Source: Candidatus Moraniibacteriota bacterium
GTDB lineage: Bacteria; Patescibacteriota; Minisyncoccia; Moranbacterales; UBA1568
Length of the DNA: 36,337 nt
Assembly (NCBI GenBank): GCA_018062205.1
Contig: JAGOSP010000011.1
Location: forward strand, 1 to 36,337
Direction of reading: 5' to 3'
Within the stretch, counting starts at the first letter, position 1. Each line of letters begins with the position of its first letter. A program made the translations under genes and the position numbers. The notes beneath the pieces were generated by a model that searched no databases, was not told the origin of the DNA, and saw nothing but the letters and a program-made list of their open reading frames with translations. Positions 1 through 11,648 of this stretch are shown piece after piece.

Positions 1-36
1 ATCTACAACAGTAGAAATCTTATAGAAGGATTCGAC
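1..36 (-). CRISPR. Leader-proximal type V-A CRISPR direct repeat (array continues off the left edge)
   Basis: Read on the minus strand this 36-base unit starts GTCGAATCC and ends TTTCTACTGTTGTAGAT, the conserved 3' end of Cas12a repeats. TCTAC and GTAGA form the 5-bp stem with a TGTT loop that Cas12a binds and cuts next to when it matures its own crRNA. It lies downstream of cas2, in the usual V-A order, and its 3' end is exactly the window edge, so the first spacer is at position 0 and beyond. Only one copy is visible. The repeat call rests on the hairpin and the neighbouring cas genes, not on repetition inside the window. Confidence 0.9.
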
Positions 37-235
37 AGGTCGTCTGGCTTATTTGAGCCGAAAAGATACAAATGACATTTTGAAGAGGTCACGACTTTTG
101 GCTCAAACAAAGGAATCCCCTTTTAAGGACACTCGGGTTTTTCCGAGCATCAATGCGCAAAAAATGCGCTTCTTAAAATACTTCCACAAAGATTTACACC
201 GTTATTGCAATTGTTAAGAAACCTAAAATCAAACA
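37..235 (-). promoter_or_regulatory. CRISPR leader region between cas2 and the array
   Basis: This 199-base non-coding stretch separates the cas2 stop from the first repeat, where leaders that drive array transcription and direct spacer integration sit. It is AT-rich on the cas2 side and holds three possible hairpins: GCGCA/TGCGC around 155-169, CTCGG/CCGAG around 132-147, and a longer inverted repeat at 52-107 close to the repeat. I see no second or degenerate repeat in it and no clear -35/-10 pair, so the array promoter is not assigned. The hairpins nearest cas2 could also end the cas transcript, but they lack a good U-run. Confidence 0.65.
52..107. repeat. Inverted repeat inside the CRISPR leader
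   Basis: Arms TTTGAGCCGAAAAG (52-65) and CTTTTGGCTCAAA (95-107) are reverse complements except for one unpaired base, giving about 13 base pairs around a 29-base loop. The structure starts about 15 bases from the first repeat, in the zone where leader-anchoring sequences and integration-host contacts lie in other systems. Its role is unknown. Confidence 0.6.
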
Positions 236-517
236 TCAACAGAAAACAACAATGTCCGACTCCTCATTCTCCGCATACCCATACCTCACAACACCCTTTT
301 GGCATCCCTTGCACACCTGAAAAATGAGTATACTGTCCGCTCCTGTGAACTGCTTTCTATACTTTAATTCTATCTCATCGAGGATATTTTGCAAGACCCG
401 GCCGCTATTGCGGATTTCAAAGACCGAATACTGAACGCGCCGCCCGTATTTCTGAATAAACTTTGAGAAACGGGCTCTTGTCCGGTTTGACCCGAAATCA
501 TAGGAAATAATCAGCAT
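236..517 (-). CDS. cas2: CRISPR-associated endoribonuclease-fold protein Cas2
   Basis: 93-residue Cas2, the structural partner of Cas1 in the spacer-integration complex. The ferredoxin-like fold signature is clear: an N-terminal strand ending in ISYDFG with the conserved Asp7, then the RxRFSKFIQKYGRRVQYSVFE segment, and a second strand ADSILIFQV. This is the usual Cas2 length. It is last in the cas12a-cas4-cas1-cas2 operon: the cas1 stop lies 13 bases upstream and the leader follows. No strong SD is seen before the ATG, so translation may depend on coupling to cas1. If cas1 is truly frameshifted, ribosomes would stop well before cas2 and coupling could fail. Confidence 0.93.
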   Translation of the reverse strand: MLIISYDFGSNRTRARFSKFIQKYGRRVQYSVFEIRNSGRVLQNILDEIELKYRKQFTGADSILIFQVCKGCQKGVVRYGYAENEESDIVVFC

Positions 518-530
518 ACAGGTTCTCTTA

Positions 531-1515
531 TTAAGTCTTCACTAAAAAAAATGGCAGGTCATCCGTTTCATTCAGCACCGCATAATAATACGCCCGCACG
601 TATCCGAAGATACTTTCTTTCTCCTCAAGCAAGGCTTCTGTGAAGAGCTGTGCATAGTGGCTGCTGTATTCATATTGCAAGACATACTGTTTCCGCTTCG
701 GAAAATACGCAAAATGCTCTTTATGCACCTGCCCAAGGTGATACATTTTTAGAAGCTTCTTCTCAATCAGACAACGGAAGGGCTCTTCAATATCACAAGC
801 AAGAGACTTCCGCTGGAAGAACAGACGATGATAGACACCCTTATAGGTATCAAATCCGAACAAACGGAGGAGCGAGTCAATATAGTTGAAAAGTATCGTG
901 TATCCGATATCTAGGAGGATATTTTCCGGATCAGTTTTTCCTCGGGGCACTCTCCTTCGCCATCCGATATCTTGAAAATACAAACCGAAAAACTGTTTAC
1001 TTGATTCCCCTTCCCTTCCGAGAAGTGTCTGATTATCCATGGCTTGTTCAACTTTGGCCTCCATACTTTTTTGATACTCTTCAATGGGTATTTCTTGTGC
1101 GCCCAGAGTTTTTACCCCCCCGCTGCTTGAGGAGAGCAAGTTGATTCTGAATTTTATTCTTCACAATGTGACGGGCGATTTGCGCCTGGCGGTGTTCGGA
1201 CATCTGATATTGACGTTCTCGAAGCAGGTAATTCCCAGCCGCCTCGGCACCAACGGCCGCATACACCTGAAAATTCTTTTTCAAAAAAAACACCGAAACG
1301 CCATTTTCGAGACACGTGCGAAGCAAGACGCTGGTGAAAGTCAGGTCTCCCAAGACAAACACCGCCAACACCCGTGAACAAGAAAGTTGATTCACGACTT
1401 TCCCCTCTTCTTCATAAGCAATGTTCTGATTCTTAATTCTCAATTTGTACTCTTTGCCAAGACTCGGTTGTACAAACAAAATCTGTTTTTCACGGAAATC
1501 GGGCAGTGTGAACAT
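531..1515 (-). pseudogene. cas1: CRISPR integrase Cas1, interrupted by a one-base frameshift
   Basis: Cas1 catalyses spacer integration. Starting at ATG 1515 (MFTLPDFREK), ten bases after the cas4 stop, the frame runs to about residue 133 and then leaves the Cas1 frame at a run of seven Gs (plus-strand Cs 1115-1121), ending after a short tail (SGRTRNTH). The Cas1 sequence resumes in the next frame (VKTLGAQEIP) and runs to 531. With six Gs the gene would be one 327-residue protein, the normal Cas1 length. All metal ligands lie after the shift in the repaired frame: Glu168 (LLGREG), His229 (GVYHR) and Asp241 (LACDIEE). The unrepaired product is therefore only the N-terminal beta domain. A separate start (TTG 1139) for the C-terminal part is possible but has no SD. 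Causes may be a real mutation, slippage/phase variation, or a homopolymer assembly error. Confidence 0.85.
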
Positions 1516-1525
1516 AGGACTTTTT

Positions 1526-2089
1526 TCATTCTTGAATGATGATATCTGGCCGACAAAGTGATTGATAGATGCAGTGCGCGCATTTCTTGAGATTCTCTTC
1601 GAGAGGTGCTTCGCGAATATCGAAAGCACGCATATGGTGTAATGTGGTTTCAAACTCTTCAAGTGCATCGCCGACTGGCAAGTCAACCTCGTAGCGTTTA
1701 TTATCTTCGAGCGAACGCAGAACCAGCCGCTCGACCGGATATCCCATTTCAGTCAAAGCAAAATACTGAGCATACAACTGGAAACGATACCCGGGGTAGA
1801 CGACCTGTATTTTTGTCTTTCGTTCAATCAGTGTCTTCGTTTCTTTCTCATAGAGATCGATTTTCCCCACCAATCCATACCGATCCGAATACACTTCGAG
1901 ACCCTGGAGATAACTCTTCTCCGAGGCATATCGACCGGTATCGATAGTGGCATGGTTCAGGCGGCCACGCGTCTGCGGTGAAGCATGATACGTGGCTGTG
2001 GAAAAACTTTCGTAGAGAGAGTGGAAGTAGAGCGAACGCGGACAAAAGAGAAAATCATTGATCTTGGAGATCTGAATATACTCTTCCAT
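1526..2089 (-). CDS. cas4: CRISPR-associated exonuclease Cas4
   Basis: 187-residue Cas4, the RecB-family nuclease that trims prespacers and helps select PAM-adjacent fragments for Cas1-Cas2. Visible landmarks are Cys16 (FCPRSLY), His46, the RecB nuclease core GKIDLY with Asp78, Glu89 and Lys91 (IERKTK), the Q-motif region YRFQLYAQYF, and a C-terminal CAHC-x5-C set (Cys170, Cys173, Cys179). With Cys16 these make the four ligands of the iron-sulfur cluster, so the protein looks intact. Its ATG overlaps the cas12a stop by one base (TAATG), which suggests translational coupling, and cas1 follows ten bases after its TGA. Confidence 0.95.
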   Translation of the reverse strand: MEEYIQISKINDFLFCPRSLYFHSLYESFSTATYHASPQTRGRLNHATIDTGRYASEKSYLQGLEVYSDRYGLVGKIDLYEKETKTLIERKTKIQVVYPGYRFQLYAQYFALTEMGYPVERLVLRSLEDNKRYEVDLPVGDALEEFETTLHHMRAFDIREAPLEENLKKCAHCIYQSLCRPDIIIQE

Positions 2090-5000
2090 TACTTCTTTTG
2101 TTCATCATCATACTGTTTTTGAACGAAACGATCCCAATCATCATTTCCTATATACAAATCGGGTTTATCAGGATTCTTAGAGATGCGTTCTTTCAAGATA
2201 ATTGCTCCCTTGCGTGCAATGTTATAGGCACCATTAGCATCACCGTTGAACGTAGAAAGGAATACTTCTTTCTTTGTTATTACACCTCTGTAGCGCTTTT
2301 CAAACTCAGACAAGCGAGACTGATCGACATATCCGGCCGCGATAGTTGCAAAGAACGGTTCAACCGGAGAGGCGATAAAGTCGATATCGGCTCCCACTTC
2401 TTCATACGTCCCTTCTTTGTTTTTCACAAACTGTTTTGAGGCAGAATTACGTAACTGAAGAATAAGTCCATCAATAATGTAGGCTATCGAGGAGAAGAAG
2501 CCTCTTGACTTGCCCATAAATGGACGCTCTCCTCCAAGCAGCTTTTGCGATGCGCGTTCTTGTATTTGATCTAAGATGTCTCCATGCACATGGTCGAATT
2601 CCCAAAGCCGAAAGAGTTCTTCGAGCAAGGTGTTAGGATCAACCTGATCGGTCTGCCAATATCCACCGCGCAACTCGCGGCGAATACGCGGGACCTTAGC
2701 ATACACCGTCCATTCTTTTGAGAGAATCTCTTTGGCCTTCTTCCTCTTTTCTCCCGAAAAGTCCGCCTGATTATAGGTGAAAAAATAACTTTTCTTCGCC
2801 TCATCCCAGGCGAATGATTGAAATTTCGTTATATTATCAAGGATCTTTTTTTGAGACCAAGAAGATTTCAAAGAGAACATCTTGCGGAATCCCGTCAATG
2901 GATCGGTAACCGAGGTATATGCAGCTTGCGTATAGAACATGATACCGGTTTGGTTAACCAGCTTTTGAAATGATTCAAATGGGGCCGCAAGCTGATAGCC
3001 ATTTAAAGCACCCCCGATTTCATTTGATTCTCGATCTTTGAATATCAGATAGCCAAGCTTATCCATGAGTTGTTTTTCCAATTGCTGATAGACACTTCGT
3101 TCAATTCCGCCTCTCACCTGTTTGAAACGCATATTGAGGTTTTCAAGCACGACGATAGCGTTGTGCTCGATGGCAAGGTCGCAAATTTTTCGTACAACAG
3201 CCGCCACATACCCCTTCTTCAGATCTTTGATTTTTACGACTGGCTCCCAAGATTGCCGATTGATGAGGCGTTCTTTCTCGAGGGTGCGCAATTTAGTGTA
3301 GTAATCAACAATGAGAACTCCTCCCCGTGTTTTCTGTTCAATAGTGTTGAGGCTTCCAGAATCAAGAATATTGCCTGTCTGATCTATGACGCTATAGTAT
3401 GCTAGATGCTTTTCGCCTCGATCAATACCGATAATATTCACTGCCTCTCCCTTCTGTTTGAGCAAATTGTTCAACTTTTGGTTAAAAGACTTTGCTTTAC
3501 CGGCGGCAGTATTTATTCCTATGGGAAGATGGAAAAGATATTTTCCTTCAGTATACCGACCCAGGCGAGTAGCATGAGCGATGGTCCTTTGATTCTTCAG
3601 GGTCGTAACCAGAAGCCTTTCCTTTTCAAAAGGACGACGAAAAAAGACTTCGGCTCCACCAAGCAAGTCGAGGGCACTCTTACTTTCGGGCGAGAAGAGT
3701 CTCTCGAAATAAAGAGTGTGAATATTCTTCATTCCCTCTTGCCCTTGCTTCTTTTTGAGGTCTTTATTGCTGATTTCAAAGAGATAGAGTGTGGGAAGCT
3801 GTTTATTTTTATTCTTTTTCCCTGTCTCTTCAATACACTGCTTTTCTACCCAGTCTCGTGAAATTTTTCTAAACGTAATACCACCCACAGGAATCTGCTC
3901 AAAGGCTTCTCGCATAACATTCGGTGATTCAAATTCCTGCAGAAGAAAGTCTGTAAGTTGTGGATAGCGAGAAACATACTTATCACGGATAAGCTCCCGA
4001 AGAAACTCCGCATGATCACGCGGAGTGATAAATACGGCTTTATGTTCCTTGAAGCTTAATCTCTTACCAAGCTTCTCACGGGTATAGGACGGGTAAACTT
4101 GTCCGCCAACGATATTCTTTCCCCAGTCTAATGATTGAAACTCCATTTTCTCATATCCGTTCTCGGTATCTTCTCCGATTTCAGGATATCGTACGTGGTC
4201 TAAGTAATGAGAAGAACTTGAAATGCCAAGATACATGGCTCCTTCTCTACGAAGAAAGTATCCCTGAAATTGAGCATTCCCTTCTGGACTTTCTGCCCAC
4301 CCATCGAGAAGATTTCCCTTCCCAAAATTTAATTTGAGCTTGTCCTTTTCATCAGGCTTCCGTGTAAGGAAATTGCGAAAGGCATTATATGAACGGACAA
4401 TATCAATGGACGATCCTTCATATGAGAAAGAGAATCGATCATAAAAAATGACATCTTCATCTGTCGGAATATCATCCAGATTCTTTGCTTCCAAAGAAAA
4501 GTAGGACAATCGTTGCCATACAGAAAGCACTGCATCTGCGTATCCCTTCATGATAGCCACTTGCTCTTTCCGATCTTCACTCCCCTCATCAGCTCTGCTT
4601 AGGTATTCATGTGCCGCTTTTAATGCCTCAGAAAAACCCGCGCGTTCAGTCAGGCCATTCTCATCAAGCTTGTTTTCAAACAACGCCTTCCAGTCATGTT
4701 CTATCAAGGCCAAGAACTGCTCAATCAAACTACGACTATCCTTCTCATCAAAAAATGCAGGTACCTTGCCTCTGGACTCATAAAAACGGTTCTTAAATAC
4801 GCGCGCTGGTTTCTGATCACCATTTCCGTTCTGCATCCCTAGCTTTACTGACTCCAGCGCGTTGGAAATATCTTGCAAAGAAATGAAAAACGCGATCTTC
4901 GGATCTTCGGGATTGACTTTTTTAGTTCTCTGAGGAAGCGAGACTAAGAATGTCTGTTCGTCAGAAAGAAAGACGTGTGCTAAGGAATTAAGGGCCTTGT

Positions 5001-6183
5001 GATTCAGATAAATACTATCAAATCCTTCCGAAAAATTACCCCGAAACAAATCGACCATAAGCGCATTAGCTTCCTCAATACGCTTCTCGGTCTCAGAACA
5101 GAACAGGCGAAAATGCTCAAGACAACCCTTGTTGTCCGTAATCAGTTCTTCATGCTTTTGCACCTCACCAAGAATCTGTTTCTTCATTCTGGCGAGCATC
5201 GGATAGTCAGACTCGCAATATTCTTTTTTGGTAGTCTTACTTTCTGATTTCCTTTGGTCACGAAGTTCCTTAACGCGCTTATTGATAGAACCAATCACAA
5301 GATTATACTCACGAATCCCTTCTTGTAAAAGACACCCCGCGTGGTATCCGTCTGAAAAAATCACCGTATCCTGATCTGAAAGACCAAGATTTTCTGCGTT
5401 TTTGGCAAGATACGTTTGAAAAAGATGTTGGTTTCGAAGAAACAGAAGATGATTTTGTACAATACGCGAGGCTACGGCCGTTGCCTCTCCTCCGGCCGAA
5501 TAAAAATTCTTTCGAGTTTCTTGAAAATTAGAAAGATAGGTCGTAAGGCCATCAAAACTATCAAAAATGTACCGTTGTTCTCCGGAAACATCTTCCTGTT
5601 CTACGAAAAGCGACGGATTCCCCCGCTCTTGCTCTTGAGCATCACTCTCCTTTGGATAGCGCTCCTTCAAAATAGGGAGAATATTTTTCGAATAGATAAA
5701 TCCTATACCCTTACTCTTTTCCTCATTTTCCAATTCATCGTCTTCTCCTTTCTTTTTCTTTTTGAATAAATGAGCGTATTTCTTGGATTCCCAATTCTCT
5801 GCCGTCTGATTAAAGAGAGCTACAATACTCTGCCTGAATACTTTTTGGGCATCTTTCCACTTCGGGTCATAACGTTGTTCTTTCTTTGGGAGCGATTGAT
5901 ATCGAACGAAGCCGTCTTCAAGCGCACCAAATGGTAGTCCCTTCGCATGCTCTTCGGAAAGGGCTTCTCGAATAAAATCTCTGTGAAGCGCGTCAAAATA
6001 GAATTTCGCGTTTCGATAACTAGCATCGATAGTCAAATCTTTCTCAAAAACTTGGTGTTCTTTCAGAAGTGCCTCTGTTTTCCCCACCGGTCTCAACTCA
6101 AAACGAAGCGTTTTGGAAAGTGCATACCTCTGAGTAAACGAATCAAAAATTCCCTCTTCTTTATCTTGTTTATGTGACGACAT
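2089..6183 (-). CDS. cas12a: Type V-A CRISPR effector nuclease Cas12a (Cpf1)
   Basis: 1364-residue single-protein effector that processes its own crRNA and cuts crRNA-matched DNA, somewhat longer than the well-known Fn, As and Lb enzymes (about 1230-1310). The N-terminus (YALSKTLRFELRPVGKT) is the typical Cas12a start, followed by an alpha-helical REC lobe. The WED/PI region holds KLKLNF (Lys617, which appears to match the PAM-contacting Lys) and LDGWAESPEG. KYLFHLPIGIN (His885) matches the crRNA-processing segment. RuvC-I is IIGIDRGEKH (Asp921), RuvC-II VVLENLN (Glu1014), Nuc-domain arginine LQLRNS (Arg1245), RuvC-III NGDANGAYNIA (Asp1315). All catalytic residues are present, so it should be active. 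A Lys-rich insertion (about 141-157) lies in REC1. No SD precedes the ATG, and I see no promoter between it and the hairpin at 6214-6292. Residue matches to structures are from memory of the family, not an alignment. Confidence 0.97.
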   Translation of the reverse strand: MSSHKQDKEEGIFDSFTQRYALSKTLRFELRPVGKTEALLKEHQVFEKDLTIDASYRNAKFYFDALHRDFIREALSEEHAKGLPFGALEDGFVRYQSLPKKEQRYDPKWKDAQKVFRQSIVALFNQTAENWESKKYAHLFKKKKKGEDDELENEEKSKGIGFIYSKNILPILKERYPKESDAQEQERGNPSLFVEQEDVSGEQRYIFDSFDGLTTYLSNFQETRKNFYSAGGEATAVASRIVQNHLLFLRNQHLFQTYLAKNAENLGLSDQDTVIFSDGYHAGCLLQEGIREYNLVIGSINKRVKELRDQRKSESKTTKKEYCESDYPMLARMKKQILGEVQKHEELITDNKGCLEHFRLFCSETEKRIEEANALMVDLFRGNFSEGFDSIYLNHKALNSLAHVFLSDEQTFLVSLPQRTKKVNPEDPKIAFFISLQDISNALESVKLGMQNGNGDQKPARVFKNRFYESRGKVPAFFDEKDSRSLIEQFLALIEHDWKALFENKLDENGLTERAGFSEALKAAHEYLSRADEGSEDRKEQVAIMKGYADAVLSVWQRLSYFSLEAKNLDDIPTDEDVIFYDRFSFSYEGSSIDIVRSYNAFRNFLTRKPDEKDKLKLNFGKGNLLDGWAESPEGNAQFQGYFLRREGAMYLGISSSSHYLDHVRYPEIGEDTENGYEKMEFQSLDWGKNIVGGQVYPSYTREKLGKRLSFKEHKAVFITPRDHAEFLRELIRDKYVSRYPQLTDFLLQEFESPNVMREAFEQIPVGGITFRKISRDWVEKQCIEETGKKNKNKQLPTLYLFEISNKDLKKKQGQEGMKNIHTLYFERLFSPESKSALDLLGGAEVFFRRPFEKERLLVTTLKNQRTIAHATRLGRYTEGKYLFHLPIGINTAAGKAKSFNQKLNNLLKQKGEAVNIIGIDRGEKHLAYYSVIDQTGNILDSGSLNTIEQKTRGGVLIVDYYTKLRTLEKERLINRQSWEPVVKIKDLKKGYVAAVVRKICDLAIEHNAIVVLENLNMRFKQVRGGIERSVYQQLEKQLMDKLGYLIFKDRESNEIGGALNGYQLAAPFESFQKLVNQTGIMFYTQAAYTSVTDPLTGFRKMFSLKSSWSQKKILDNITKFQSFAWDEAKKSYFFTYNQADFSGEKRKKAKEILSKEWTVYAKVPRIRRELRGGYWQTDQVDPNTLLEELFRLWEFDHVHGDILDQIQERASQKLLGGERPFMGKSRGFFSSIAYIIDGLILQLRNSASKQFVKNKEGTYEEVGADIDFIASPVEPFFATIAAGYVDQSRLSEFEKRYRGVITKKEVFLSTFNGDANGAYNIARKGAIILKERISKNPDKPDLYIGNDDWDRFVQKQYDDEQKK

Positions 6184-8504: not shown

Positions 8505-10007
8505 TTAGATAGCACACTGCGCCTGCGCAAACTGAATGCGAGCCAGCGAAATCTGCCGGCCGAGTACCCAAGCGCAATCAAATGGCGAGGGTGAACGCTG
8601 GGCCCCAGACAAAGCGACACGGAGCGGCCAGAGAAAGTCCCCTCGCTTGTCGCCAGCGGCTTCGAGTAAAATTCTCTCAAGCTCCGCATGATTGTTCCAT
8701 ACTGCTGTATCGAGATTGACGAGTATTTCATACGATTTTTTCAGCGCTACTTCTGAAAGAGCAAGCGTATTCTCTTTCCAGCAAAGTAATTCCTTCTCAT
8801 AGTGTAGGGTTTCGGAAAAGAAGAAGGGATTTTGTTCCCCGAATTCTGAAAGTTTTGTGAGGCGGTCTTGCTCGATGGTCAAAACCCGCTTCAGAAATTC
8901 CTCTGTCTGCAGAGCGGCTGGTGCGTTCCGAATTAATTCTTTTTCCAAAAAATTTCCTTCTTGAATGAGATCAAACAGCGTGTCAATATCTGAATTCTTT
9001 ATATATTCCGCATTCATCCAGTCGAGTTTTTTGCTATCAAAAACAGCTCCAGCTTTATTCACCTGAGCAAGATCAAATTTTGTTATAAGCTCATCAAGAG
9101 TAAACACTTCCTGAGTTTCACCCTTACCTGGATTCCATCCAAGGAGTGCGACAAAATTAATCAATGCTTCTTTGAGATACCCCTTCGCAAGGTAATCTTC
9201 TACGGCGACATCGCCTTGCCTCTTGGAGAGCTTTGATTTGTCTGGATTAAGAAGAAGTGGTAAATGCCCAAATTCCGTTGGCTGCCATCCAAAAGCCTCA
9301 TAGAGAAGTACATGCTTGGGAGTTGACGGGAGCCACTCTTCACCTCGAATCACGTGCGTAATTTCCATCAGGTGATCGTCTACTACTACTGCCAAATGAT
9401 ACGTCGGGAAGCCATCTGATTTAATAATCACTTGATCGTCCATATCACGCGTATGGAATTTTACCGTCCCACGAATCAAATCAACAAACTCAATATCACG
9501 ATCATCAGGAATACGAAAACGAATCACCGACACTTCGCCAGCTTCTTTTTTTGCTGCCACTTCTGCGGACGAAAGAGCGAGGCAATGACGGTCATAGCGA
9601 GGAGCACGTTTGGCTGCAATTTGTATTTCACGCATTGCTGTTAAACGCTCGGCTGAACAAAAACAGTGATAGGCCATACCTTTTTCTACAAGGTCATTGG
9701 CATATTTTTGATACAATGCTAGTCGCTCAGATTGCATATAGGGCCCATGGTCTCCGTGCGATGCACACACACCCTCATGCGAAGCAAACCCTTCATCACA
9801 AGACAAGCCGACTTTTTCAAGAACAGCAACGAGTCCTTCGACGGCACCTGGCACCAGACGCTTCTGATCGGTGTCTTCAATACGTAAAACGAAGTCACCT
9901 CCGTGTTTTTTGGCAAAAAGATAGCCATACAAAGCTGTTCGCAATCCTCCTACATGAAGAAATCCGGTTGGAGATGGGGCGAATCGAGTACGAATATGTT
10001 GATTCAT
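8505..10007 (-). CDS. gltX: Glutamyl-tRNA synthetase
   Basis: 500-residue class I synthetase that charges tRNA-Glu (and possibly tRNA-Gln in organisms relying on amidation). The HIGH-type motif is SPTGFLHVGG near residue 13 with FVLRIEDTDQKR just after, and the KMSKS motif is KLSKRQGDVAVEDYL near residue 260. Length is normal for bacterial GluRS. The central Cys/His positions (YHCFCSAERL) resemble the SWIM-like zinc region of many bacterial GluRS, though the full ligand set is not certain. A TTGATT-17-GATAAT promoter lies about 40 bases upstream, back to back with the promoter of the structured RNA. No SD before the ATG. It may be non-discriminating, but this cannot be judged from sequence alone. 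Confidence 0.96.
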   Translation of the reverse strand: MNQHIRTRFAPSPTGFLHVGGLRTALYGYLFAKKHGGDFVLRIEDTDQKRLVPGAVEGLVAVLEKVGLSCDEGFASHEGVCASHGDHGPYMQSERLALYQKYANDLVEKGMAYHCFCSAERLTAMREIQIAAKRAPRYDRHCLALSSAEVAAKKEAGEVSVIRFRIPDDRDIEFVDLIRGTVKFHTRDMDDQVIIKSDGFPTYHLAVVVDDHLMEITHVIRGEEWLPSTPKHVLLYEAFGWQPTEFGHLPLLLNPDKSKLSKRQGDVAVEDYLAKGYLKEALINFVALLGWNPGKGETQEVFTLDELITKFDLAQVNKAGAVFDSKKLDWMNAEYIKNSDIDTLFDLIQEGNFLEKELIRNAPAALQTEEFLKRVLTIEQDRLTKLSEFGEQNPFFFSETLHYEKELLCWKENTLALSEVALKKSYEILVNLDTAVWNNHAELERILLEAAGDKRGDFLWPLRVALSGAQRSPSPFDCAWVLGRQISLARIQFAQAQCAI

Positions 10008-10045
10008 AAGTTAGATAGATGCAGAAAAAATAGGTTATTTCTTGT

Positions 10046-10074
10046 ATTATCCCCTTTTTGAAGCCATAAATCAA
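10046..10074 (-). promoter_or_regulatory. gltX promoter
   Basis: Minus strand TTGATT (10069-10074), 17-base spacer, GATAAT (10046-10051), upstream of the gltX ATG at 10007. Its -35 is only four bases from the -35 of the divergent RNA promoter at 10078, so the two promoters cannot easily be bound by RNA polymerase at once. Confidence 0.6.
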
Positions 10075-10077
10075 GTA

Positions 10078-10106
10078 TTGACAATAGTCAGATTTAAGAG
10101 TATAAT
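10078..10106 (+). promoter_or_regulatory. Perfect-consensus sigma70-type promoter of the structured RNA
   Basis: TTGACA (10078-10083), exactly 17 bases, TATAAT (10101-10106): the best promoter in the window. Predicted start near 10113. No protein gene follows on this strand before the terminator at 10263-10288. Confidence 0.85.
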
Positions 10107-10112
10107 TAACTT

Positions 10113-10288
10113 TCGTTCTTTATTTTAAAAAGGAGATCGGCATGCGACGATAAATAAGTCGGGCATACCACCCGGCACAGGAGAGAGGCATCGTCCACCT
10201 CGCGTTCAGACTTCTGGGAGCTTCCGGCTTCCGCGTCACAAAATGACTATCTGAACACCCCTAAGAATCGCCCCCAAGCGATTCTTTT
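10113..10288 (+). ncRNA. Structured small RNA of unknown family, about 175 nt
   Basis: The transcription unit runs from the consensus promoter to an intrinsic terminator and has no real protein gene. Possible helices: GTCGGG/CCCGGC with a 7-base loop around 10158-10176; a long-range GACGAT/ATCGTC pair enclosing it; and a three-way junction with outer stem GTTCAGA/TCTGAAC (10204-10210 with 10250-10256) holding hairpins GGGAGC/GCTTCC (10216-10232, UUCCG-type loop) and GTCA/TGAC (10235-10247). Near the 5' end AAAAAGGAG precedes ATG-CGA-CGA-TAA (10142-10153), a possible three-codon ORF (Met-Arg-Arg). I looked for the hallmarks of tmRNA, RNase P RNA and SRP RNA and did not find them; a divergent 6S-like RNA is not excluded. 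Its 3' end overlaps the tagA stop codon on the other strand. Confidence 0.65.
10263..10288 (+). terminator. Intrinsic terminator of the structured RNA
   Basis: AAGAATCGC pairs perfectly with GCGATTCTT around a CCCCAA loop, followed by TTT on the plus strand. The minus strand has no U-tract, so this serves the RNA unit and not the convergent tagA gene. Confidence 0.75.
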
Positions 10289-11010
10289 CATTTGTCTGTA
10301 AAACTTCGATAGAGGAAAACTCCCGTTGCCCTCCAGACTCTTCCAATACGGTGTGGCTGCATCACGAGTCGCCAAAACCATTCGAGACCGAGTTGTCGCA
10401 TCCATTTTGGAGCTCGAGTGAGCTTGCTGGTAAGATAATCAAAACTTCCACCAACTCCCATAGCAAGACGGATACTTTTTGATTCCTCTCGAAGATGCTC
10501 CGCAAAATATTCCTGTTCTGGCGCACCAAAATTACAAAAAACGATTTCTGATTGTTTTTTACAAGCACAAGATGATGAATGATTTGTCGTGGATGTCCAG
10601 TGCTGGGCATGCATATTCTCACCGTCAATGACCAGTCTTGGATAGCTCTGCATCAGTGATTGCTTAATGTCTTCGTACGAAGAGAGTCCGTCTTGACGAA
10701 TGGCCAGAAAAACCGAGTACTGCTTCTTTTCCGCCTGAGCAAGTAGCATTTGAAGAAGATCGGCTCCTGGCAAGCGACGAACATGTTTTCCAAAGAACCA
10801 GGCAACTAATACGATACCAAATCCATCGATACTCCGAAGGTCTGCCAATCGAAGATTTTCCGCAAATACAGAATCTTCTCTCGCTCGTAAAAGAAATTCT
10901 GGATTCACAGTCGAAATTCGATGAAAATCATTTCCAGAAAGCCAGGCAGTACATCGAACCAGAAGCTCTTTATGAGAAAGACTCTCGAGCTTGATACCAA
11001 AGAGTTCCAT
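10288..11010 (-). CDS. WecG/TagA/CpsF-family glycosyltransferase
   Basis: 240 residues from ATG 11010. Family hallmarks are the N-terminal STVNPEFLLRARED segment (normally T-x-N-x-x-hydrophobic), IDGFGIVLVAWFFG with the catalytic-type Asp, RRLPGADLLQMLL, and the C-terminal SEIVFCNFGAPEQEYF and AMGVGGSFDYLTSKLTRAPKWM segments. Members add N-acetylmannosamine-type sugars to lipid-linked precursors of wall polymers or surface polysaccharide at the inner face of the membrane. The C-terminal GLEWFWRLVMQPHR is also typical. An upstream GTG (11100) would add a hydrophobic, Cys-rich 30-residue segment overlapping the thpR stop; I prefer 11010 because homologues start near MELFGIKLE. Sugar substrate unknown. 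Confidence 0.88.
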   Translation of the reverse strand: MELFGIKLESLSHKELLVRCTAWLSGNDFHRISTVNPEFLLRAREDSVFAENLRLADLRSIDGFGIVLVAWFFGKHVRRLPGADLLQMLLAQAEKKQYSVFLAIRQDGLSSYEDIKQSLMQSYPRLVIDGENMHAQHWTSTTNHSSSCACKKQSEIVFCNFGAPEQEYFAEHLREESKSIRLAMGVGGSFDYLTSKLTRAPKWMRQLGLEWFWRLVMQPHRIGRVWRATGVFLYRSFTDK

Positions 11011-11093
11011 GAGATAACTCTTAATACAAATTACTACTCCAATACAGAGGAATATCCTCCTCAAACAGAAGAGGCTCCAAGCCAAAAAAAAAA

Positions 11094-11648
11094 TTAGCAC
11101 GAGGCCAATGGAACAGATTCGAGTGGGCTGTACTTGCGCTCACCATCTTCGATGACACTCTCGTACACCACCACTGTTTCAACTGGTTCGACAAGATGAA
11201 CGCTTTTTTCGATATCTGGTCTGGGATCAAGCTTACGGAAAGCAGACTTTTTGATACGAGCAAGCGTGATGTGTGGACGATAGATTTTTGGATCTGAAGG
11301 AACAACGAAAGAAAGCTCGCGTTTAATAGCTGTCGTGAGGTCACGCAGAGCATCACTTGGTTCGCCAGCCAACCAAACCATTTTTGGATCTTCGACGGTT
11401 GGAACAAGGCGTATCCCCGAAAAAGCAATCTCAAATGAATCTTCAGTTTCACACAATCTTCGTACTTTTTCACAAATATCAGGCACCATTGCTTCGGGAA
11501 TAAACCCGAGAAAAAAGAGCGTCACATGAAGATTTTCCTTTACTGTTTTCAGGAACACTTCTTCCGGCCACGAAGAAATTTCTCGCGCCAATCGGGACGC
11601 CAGTGCGGAAGAGAGCGGAATTCCAACAAACAGTCTTCTTTGAAGCAT
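11094..11648 (-). CDS. thpR: RNA 2',3'-cyclic phosphodiesterase (2H family, ThpR/LigT)
   Basis: 184 residues from ATG 11648 (MLQRRLFVGIPL). The two catalytic HxT motifs of the 2H superfamily are HVTLFFLG (about residue 41) and RPHITLARIK (about residue 129). The family opens 2',3'-cyclic phosphates on RNA, historically seen as 2'-5' RNA ligase. Length is typical. A TTGCAA-17-TACAAT promoter lies just upstream and faces away from priA. It is followed by tagA on the same strand, 83 bases from its stop to the preferred tagA start. A second 2H protein with a different layout is at 34928-35536. Confidence 0.92.
   Translation of the reverse strand: MLQRRLFVGIPLSSALASRLAREISSWPEEVFLKTVKENLHVTLFFLGFIPEAMVPDICEKVRRLCETEDSFEIAFSGIRLVPTVEDPKMVWLAGEPSDALRDLTTAIKRELSFVVPSDPKIYRPHITLARIKKSAFRKLDPRPDIEKSVHLVEPVETVVVYESVIEDGERKYSPLESVPLASC

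Follow-up and report, generated by a model that had tools for sequence, protein, structure and literature searches.

Several described bacterial systems place a very short or secondary open reading frame (ORF) behind a Shine-Dalgarno (SD) sequence on a small or structured transcript. The dual-function small RNAs (sRNAs) SR1/SR1P of Bacillus subtilis and VcdRP of Vibrio cholerae each combine a regulatory RNA body with an SD-led ORF (PMC8501984, PMC8672173). In the cry3A mRNA, the STAB-SD, a strong SD close to the 5' end, allows a bound 30S subunit to block 5'-3' decay (PMC4113751). The bar minigenes of phage lambda are very short SD-led ORFs within a phage transcript and act via peptidyl-tRNA, and leader-peptide attenuators have a short ORF beside alternative hairpins and a terminator. 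To our knowledge, regulatory RNAs of Patescibacteria, or the Candidate Phyla Radiation (CPR), have hardly been described. Here we analyzed a stretch of 36,337 nucleotides (the window) from a Candidatus Moraniibacteriota bacterium (assembly GCA_018062205.1, contig JAGOSP010000011.1). Its positions 10078-10288 form, by direct reading and scan, a monocistronic unit composed of a promoter, an SD, a three-codon ORF, helices, and an intrinsic terminator. Sequence comparison confirmed that this unit is a real, evolutionarily conserved folded RNA restricted to the closest relatives of its host. Our best explanation, to which we give about an even chance, is a standalone, genus-restricted structured small RNA of ~175 nt with a ribosome-occupied 5' end.

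The unit lies on the + strand and opens with an exact sigma-70-type promoter, TTGACA-17-TATAAT (TTGACA at 10078-10083, TATAAT at 10101-10106), found by both direct reading and scan as originally predicted. The 966-kb genome contains 12 exact TTGACA-TATAAT promoters (spacer 16-18) versus 0 instances of a reversed control pattern, so the match is not a chance one. The promoters of this set serve groEL, small orphan ORFs led by an SD, and two or more further RNA-like units. Transcription of the RNA would start at about 10113. The SD AAAGGAG (10129-10135) is located ~17 nt from this presumed start and is invariant in the three species that carry the unit; the ORF ATG CGA CGA TAA (Met-Arg-Arg-stop) occupies 10142-10153. 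Hairpin H1 (10158-10163 with 10171-10176) begins 4 nt past the stop codon and has an invariant stem and a variable loop. It is followed by hairpin H2 (10185-10188 with 10198-10201) and by a three-way junction at 10204-10256, which is composed of helices H3 (10204-10210 with 10250-10256), H4 (10216-10221 with 10227-10232), and H5 (10235-10238 with 10244-10247). A terminator scanner placed the terminator hairpin at 10263-10286, and a U tract comes after it. No protein gene overlaps the unit on the + strand, and a conserved longer reading frame is ruled out by 1-nt indels between the homologues, in line with the proposal of a ~175-nt RNA without a protein gene.

Homologues were sought by several routes. 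In a DNA search of 95 relatives, the only convincing matches were those in G001 and G002, both of the same genus as the genome under study (G000). The RNA is hence present in two of the three other species of the genus, and with the same synteny: in all three bearers it is flanked by gltX (glutamyl-tRNA synthetase; 8505-10007, − strand), the divergent neighbor, and by tagA (a tagA/wecG-family glycosyltransferase gene; 10288-11100, − strand), the convergent one. A covariance model built from the three sequences, R1, scored 115-153 bits in the bearers and at most 19.5 bits in 378 other genomes. An R1 search of 380 genomes across the phylum, a set partly overlapping the 378, revealed nothing convincing; an exact core pattern search agreed with R1 in finding no further homologues, and the phage and plasmid collections contained no match. 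Weak R1 matches in G094, G120, G294, and G421 (16-20 bits) were rejected as far below the scores of true members, those in G094 and G120 lying, on reading, in apparent coding sequence. The core pattern also had 12 matches in IMG/VR viral contigs, which is approximately the chance number by our own estimate, and the best of them reached 14 bits under the model. Homologues in CPR genomes, from which the original prediction had proposed to build a model, thus exist and yielded one, but are confined to one genus. Between species, the RNA core is 72-77% identical, whereas the fourfold sites of gltX are 37-38% identical (37% between G000 and G002, close to saturated). This difference indicates that the RNA is under selection.

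The comparison also supports the fold. Folding of the unit as a single sequence was only mildly better than that of shuffles (z −1.76); the H3/H4/H5 junction and H1 were recovered in the centroid fold of G000 and, independently, in that of G002. In the alignment of the three homologues, 98.8% of cells are paired, as against at most 46% in a control with slid partners, and three base pairs have changes on both sides, two in H3 and one in H5. The several consistent helices and the three-way junction originally read from one sequence are thereby backed, and the covarying pairs to be sought in homologues were found. Stem columns are identical in 47 of 54 cases versus 46 of 75 for unpaired columns. 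The consensus fold had a z of −1.9 with three sequences and −3.4 with two when an unfitted MAFFT alignment was compared with column shuffles; the values of −4.9 to −7.4 obtained on a structure-guided alignment are biased towards structure, the gaps having been placed with it in view. The predicted stable terminator is present in G001 and G002 at the same position, with its whole stem sequence replaced. A CAGGR/YYCUG pseudoknot helix is possible in all three homologues and shows changes on one side only. Pairing of the mini-ORF's CGA with a UCG past H2 was rejected as unsupported by G001.

We then inspected the three-codon ORF, which reads ATG AAT CGA TGA and ATG CTT CGA TGA in the homologues. 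All three sequences retain the SD, the AUG, CGA as codon 3, and a stop (UAA or UGA), while the SD-AUG spacer and codon 2 (CGA/AAT/CTT, encoding Arg/Asn/Leu) have diverged. This pattern suggests selection for loading a ribosome and for terminating it 4 nt ahead of H1, and not for the peptide. As a bare pattern, AAGGAG-4..8-ATG-two codons-stop is at chance level (3 in the genome vs 1.6 in shuffles); the mini-ORF is made convincing only by its position 35 nt past a perfect promoter and its retention in three species. In G001, the distance from the −10 box to the SD is ~150 nt greater owing to an insert, which brings a second SD and an ORF of 49 codons in frame with the mini-ORF and ending at the same stop; translation would therefore end 4 nt before H1 in every bearer. 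A search for relatives of this 49-aa ORF returned no Pfam and no phage match, and its best weak matches, which overlap another frame of a LexA-like gene, were set aside. Readthrough of the stop codon was likewise rejected: although the frame stays open for ~30 codons past it, this frame is interrupted by 1-nt indels between species. The original prediction, which had correctly read a strong SD followed by ATG-CGA-CGA-TAA, left the ORF as chance, a leader peptide, or a mini-gene that holds ribosomes. Chance is disfavored by the conservation in three species, and a leader peptide by the freedom of codon 2 and by the lack of a downstream gene on the + strand; that the ORF holds ribosomes is what we infer, and it fits best of the three.

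Set against the systems described above, the unit resembles each in part. Like SR1/SR1P and VcdRP, it is a small transcript with an RNA body and an SD-led ORF (PMC8501984, PMC8672173), but those RNAs encode a selected small protein, whereas the unit has three codons with codon 2 free and no peptide product is indicated. It shares with STAB-SD a strong SD near the 5' end, to which a 30S subunit could bind, and differs in that an AUG at the proper distance and a stop are also conserved. Its ORF is of the length found in lambda bar minigenes (2-3 codons, SD-led), but these lie within a phage transcript, whereas the unit is a standalone structured RNA using a common codon. In contrast to leader-peptide attenuators, the unit is followed by no gene on its own strand, the next gene, tagA, being convergent in G000, G001, and G002; it is therefore not an attenuator or riboswitch of a downstream gene. 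Known RNA classes were examined as well. Rfam 15 at gathering scores found only a tRNA in the window, and at E ≤ 10 the unit matched only ST7-OT3_4, at 11.9 bits (gathering score 80). No standard housekeeping family thus matched even at this lenient threshold, as the original prediction had supposed. The genome has its own transfer-messenger RNA (C3:54089-54524, 94.6 bits) and RNase P RNA (C15:12191-12611, 106.5 bits) elsewhere, so the unit is neither. The 6S RNA (RF00013) and small signal recognition particle RNA (RF00169) models had no match in the 97% complete G000 genome, the large signal recognition particle model not having been run genome-wide. Absence outside three species also makes the unit unlike a housekeeping RNA.

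The sequence signals, the conservation, the covariation, and the selection on SD, AUG, and stop constitute the established part of our account; transcription, translation, and the stabilization or gating of the unit are what we infer. The strong promoter would produce the RNA and the intrinsic terminator would end it. A ribosome would initiate at the SD and AUG, add two residues, and terminate 4 nt ahead of H1. Given the known size of its footprint, a ribosome terminating there would sit over the 5' strand of H1, so that the footprint would extend over the leader and the 5' side of this hairpin. The three-codon peptide would not be the product, as codon 2 is free. Instead, the most likely benefit of translation or ribosome occupancy is protection of the 5' end, as proposed for STAB-SD (PMC4113751), or gating of H1 folding. 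The conserved body, comprising H1, H2, and the three-way junction, would do the work of the RNA, presumably by regulating in trans through pairing or the binding of a protein. A more general version of this idea, which we put forward tentatively and consider somewhat doubtful, is that the RNA represents a class of otherwise non-coding sRNAs in which a minimal ORF is selected only to park and terminate a ribosome at a set position ahead of a folded regulatory body, with translation serving as a 5' cap or folding gate.

The genomic slot of the RNA raises two other explanations. In G005, G011, G013, G014, G016, and others, which represent several genera of the family, tagA and gltX lie directly next to each other on the same strand. 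In G003, G004, G008, and G010, the gap between the two genes holds a cassette of promoter, leader, SD, protein ORF, and terminator in the orientation of the RNA; the ORFs are unrelated (that of G003 has 81 aa), and the terminator precedes tagA. The RNA therefore stands where relatives have small genes, and an mRNA of this kind may be its origin. It could accordingly be the relic or derivative of a small-protein gene, in which the ORF of a slot cassette has shrunk to three codons and the rest is an old 3' UTR, decaying or exapted. The four cassettes speak for such a descent, as do the 49-codon ORF in the same transcript in G001 and the SD-led orphan ORFs driven by most of the other exact promoters in G000. 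Conservation far in excess of the neutral level, together with the compensatory changes, nevertheless excludes pure decay; the short leader common to G000 and G002 makes the G001 ORF more likely an insertion than ancestral; and the 1-nt indels mean that, after the three bearers diverged from their common ancestor, the body was not under selection for coding. We judge this origin unlikely overall, while exaptation of an old mRNA is possible and compatible with our best explanation. Alternatively, the unit may act in cis, its strong transcription towards tagA and away from gltX serving to separate the genes by interference or as antisense at the 3' end of tagA, with the RNA itself being minor. 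The abutting of tagA and gltX in the relatives fits this idea; moreover, the cassette faces tagA, and the terminator U tract extends to the tagA stop codon. The divergent promoters are also tightly packed and conserved: a promoter-like site TTGATT-17-GATAAT, probably for gltX, lies at 10046-10074 on the − strand, and the block 10043-10083 around it is near-identical in the three species. Yet interference needs only a promoter and a terminator, and conservation here extends to the body, SD, and mini-ORF and includes compensatory changes, which renders a purely cis-acting unit quite improbable.

The ORF itself invites comparison with a trap in the manner of lambda bar, where translation of a few codons would release peptidyl-tRNA and tie up tRNA-Arg. 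Minigenes and early codons cause peptidyl-tRNA drop-off (PMC8012679), and the unit is in keeping with this in its strong SD, its ORF of three codons, and the invariant CGA that precedes the stop. However, few Arg codons are used more often than CGA here (13.4 per 1000), and the genome has tRNA-Arg(tcg), so that no starvation would be expected; the conserved structured body would, moreover, be superfluous to a trap. We regard this reading as very improbable. Several observations weigh against the ribosome-occupied structured RNA that we prefer. There are only three homologues, and G003, of the same genus and ~90% complete, has no copy. G001 and G002 are 99-100% identical in the 3' half of the RNA and tagA versus ~77% in gltX DNA, which looks like a recombination event; owing to this common segment, the covariation rests on about two independent lineages. 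As an alternative pairing, the CAGGR/YYCUG helix takes the place of H3 in the G001 fold. The SD is predicted to be mostly paired in all three homologues. In addition, CGA URA AAU is perhaps conserved for RNA reasons, in which case the stop codon would be incidental.

The leader contains GTTCTTT (10115-10121, + strand), a motif with a boxA-like core that could also pair with the SD. Strong promoters of G000 are followed by this heptamer 4 times versus 0.29 expected, one of them being the RNase P RNA promoter, and it is also found in the leaders of some relatives' slot cassettes. It may be a boxA-like motif or a leader able to pair with AAAGGA SDs. A reading as boxA antitermination was set aside, as the motif is inexact in G001 and G002 and only weakly enriched before SD-led ORFs.

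Two other elements behind exact promoters of G000 resemble RNA units. The one at G000:C3:83218-83370 is a candidate standalone RNA of ~165 nt with a long closing stem (−74 kcal/mol with terminator); it has no Rfam match above threshold, is conserved at the DNA level in all four species of the genus (79-93%), and could be a diverged housekeeping RNA. On the minus strand at G000:C24:31843-31870, the promoter precedes a structured region rich in G+C and a run of T, with no convincing ORF, possibly a further small RNA. In the window itself, positions 1-6183 hold what we take to be a Cas12a locus, all on the minus strand, with cas2 (236-517), cas1, cas4 (1526-2089), and a cas12a of 1364 aa (2089-6183); the window presumably starts with a direct-repeat-like end, ATCTACAACAGTAGAAAT.

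The unit is compact and of clear anatomy, and it separates selection on translation signals from selection on the encoded peptide. With it, ribosome occupancy as the function of an ORF becomes a directly testable question. The slot between tagA and gltX, where relatives carry unrelated promoter-driven small genes, in turn lends itself to following the gain and loss of small genes and RNAs.
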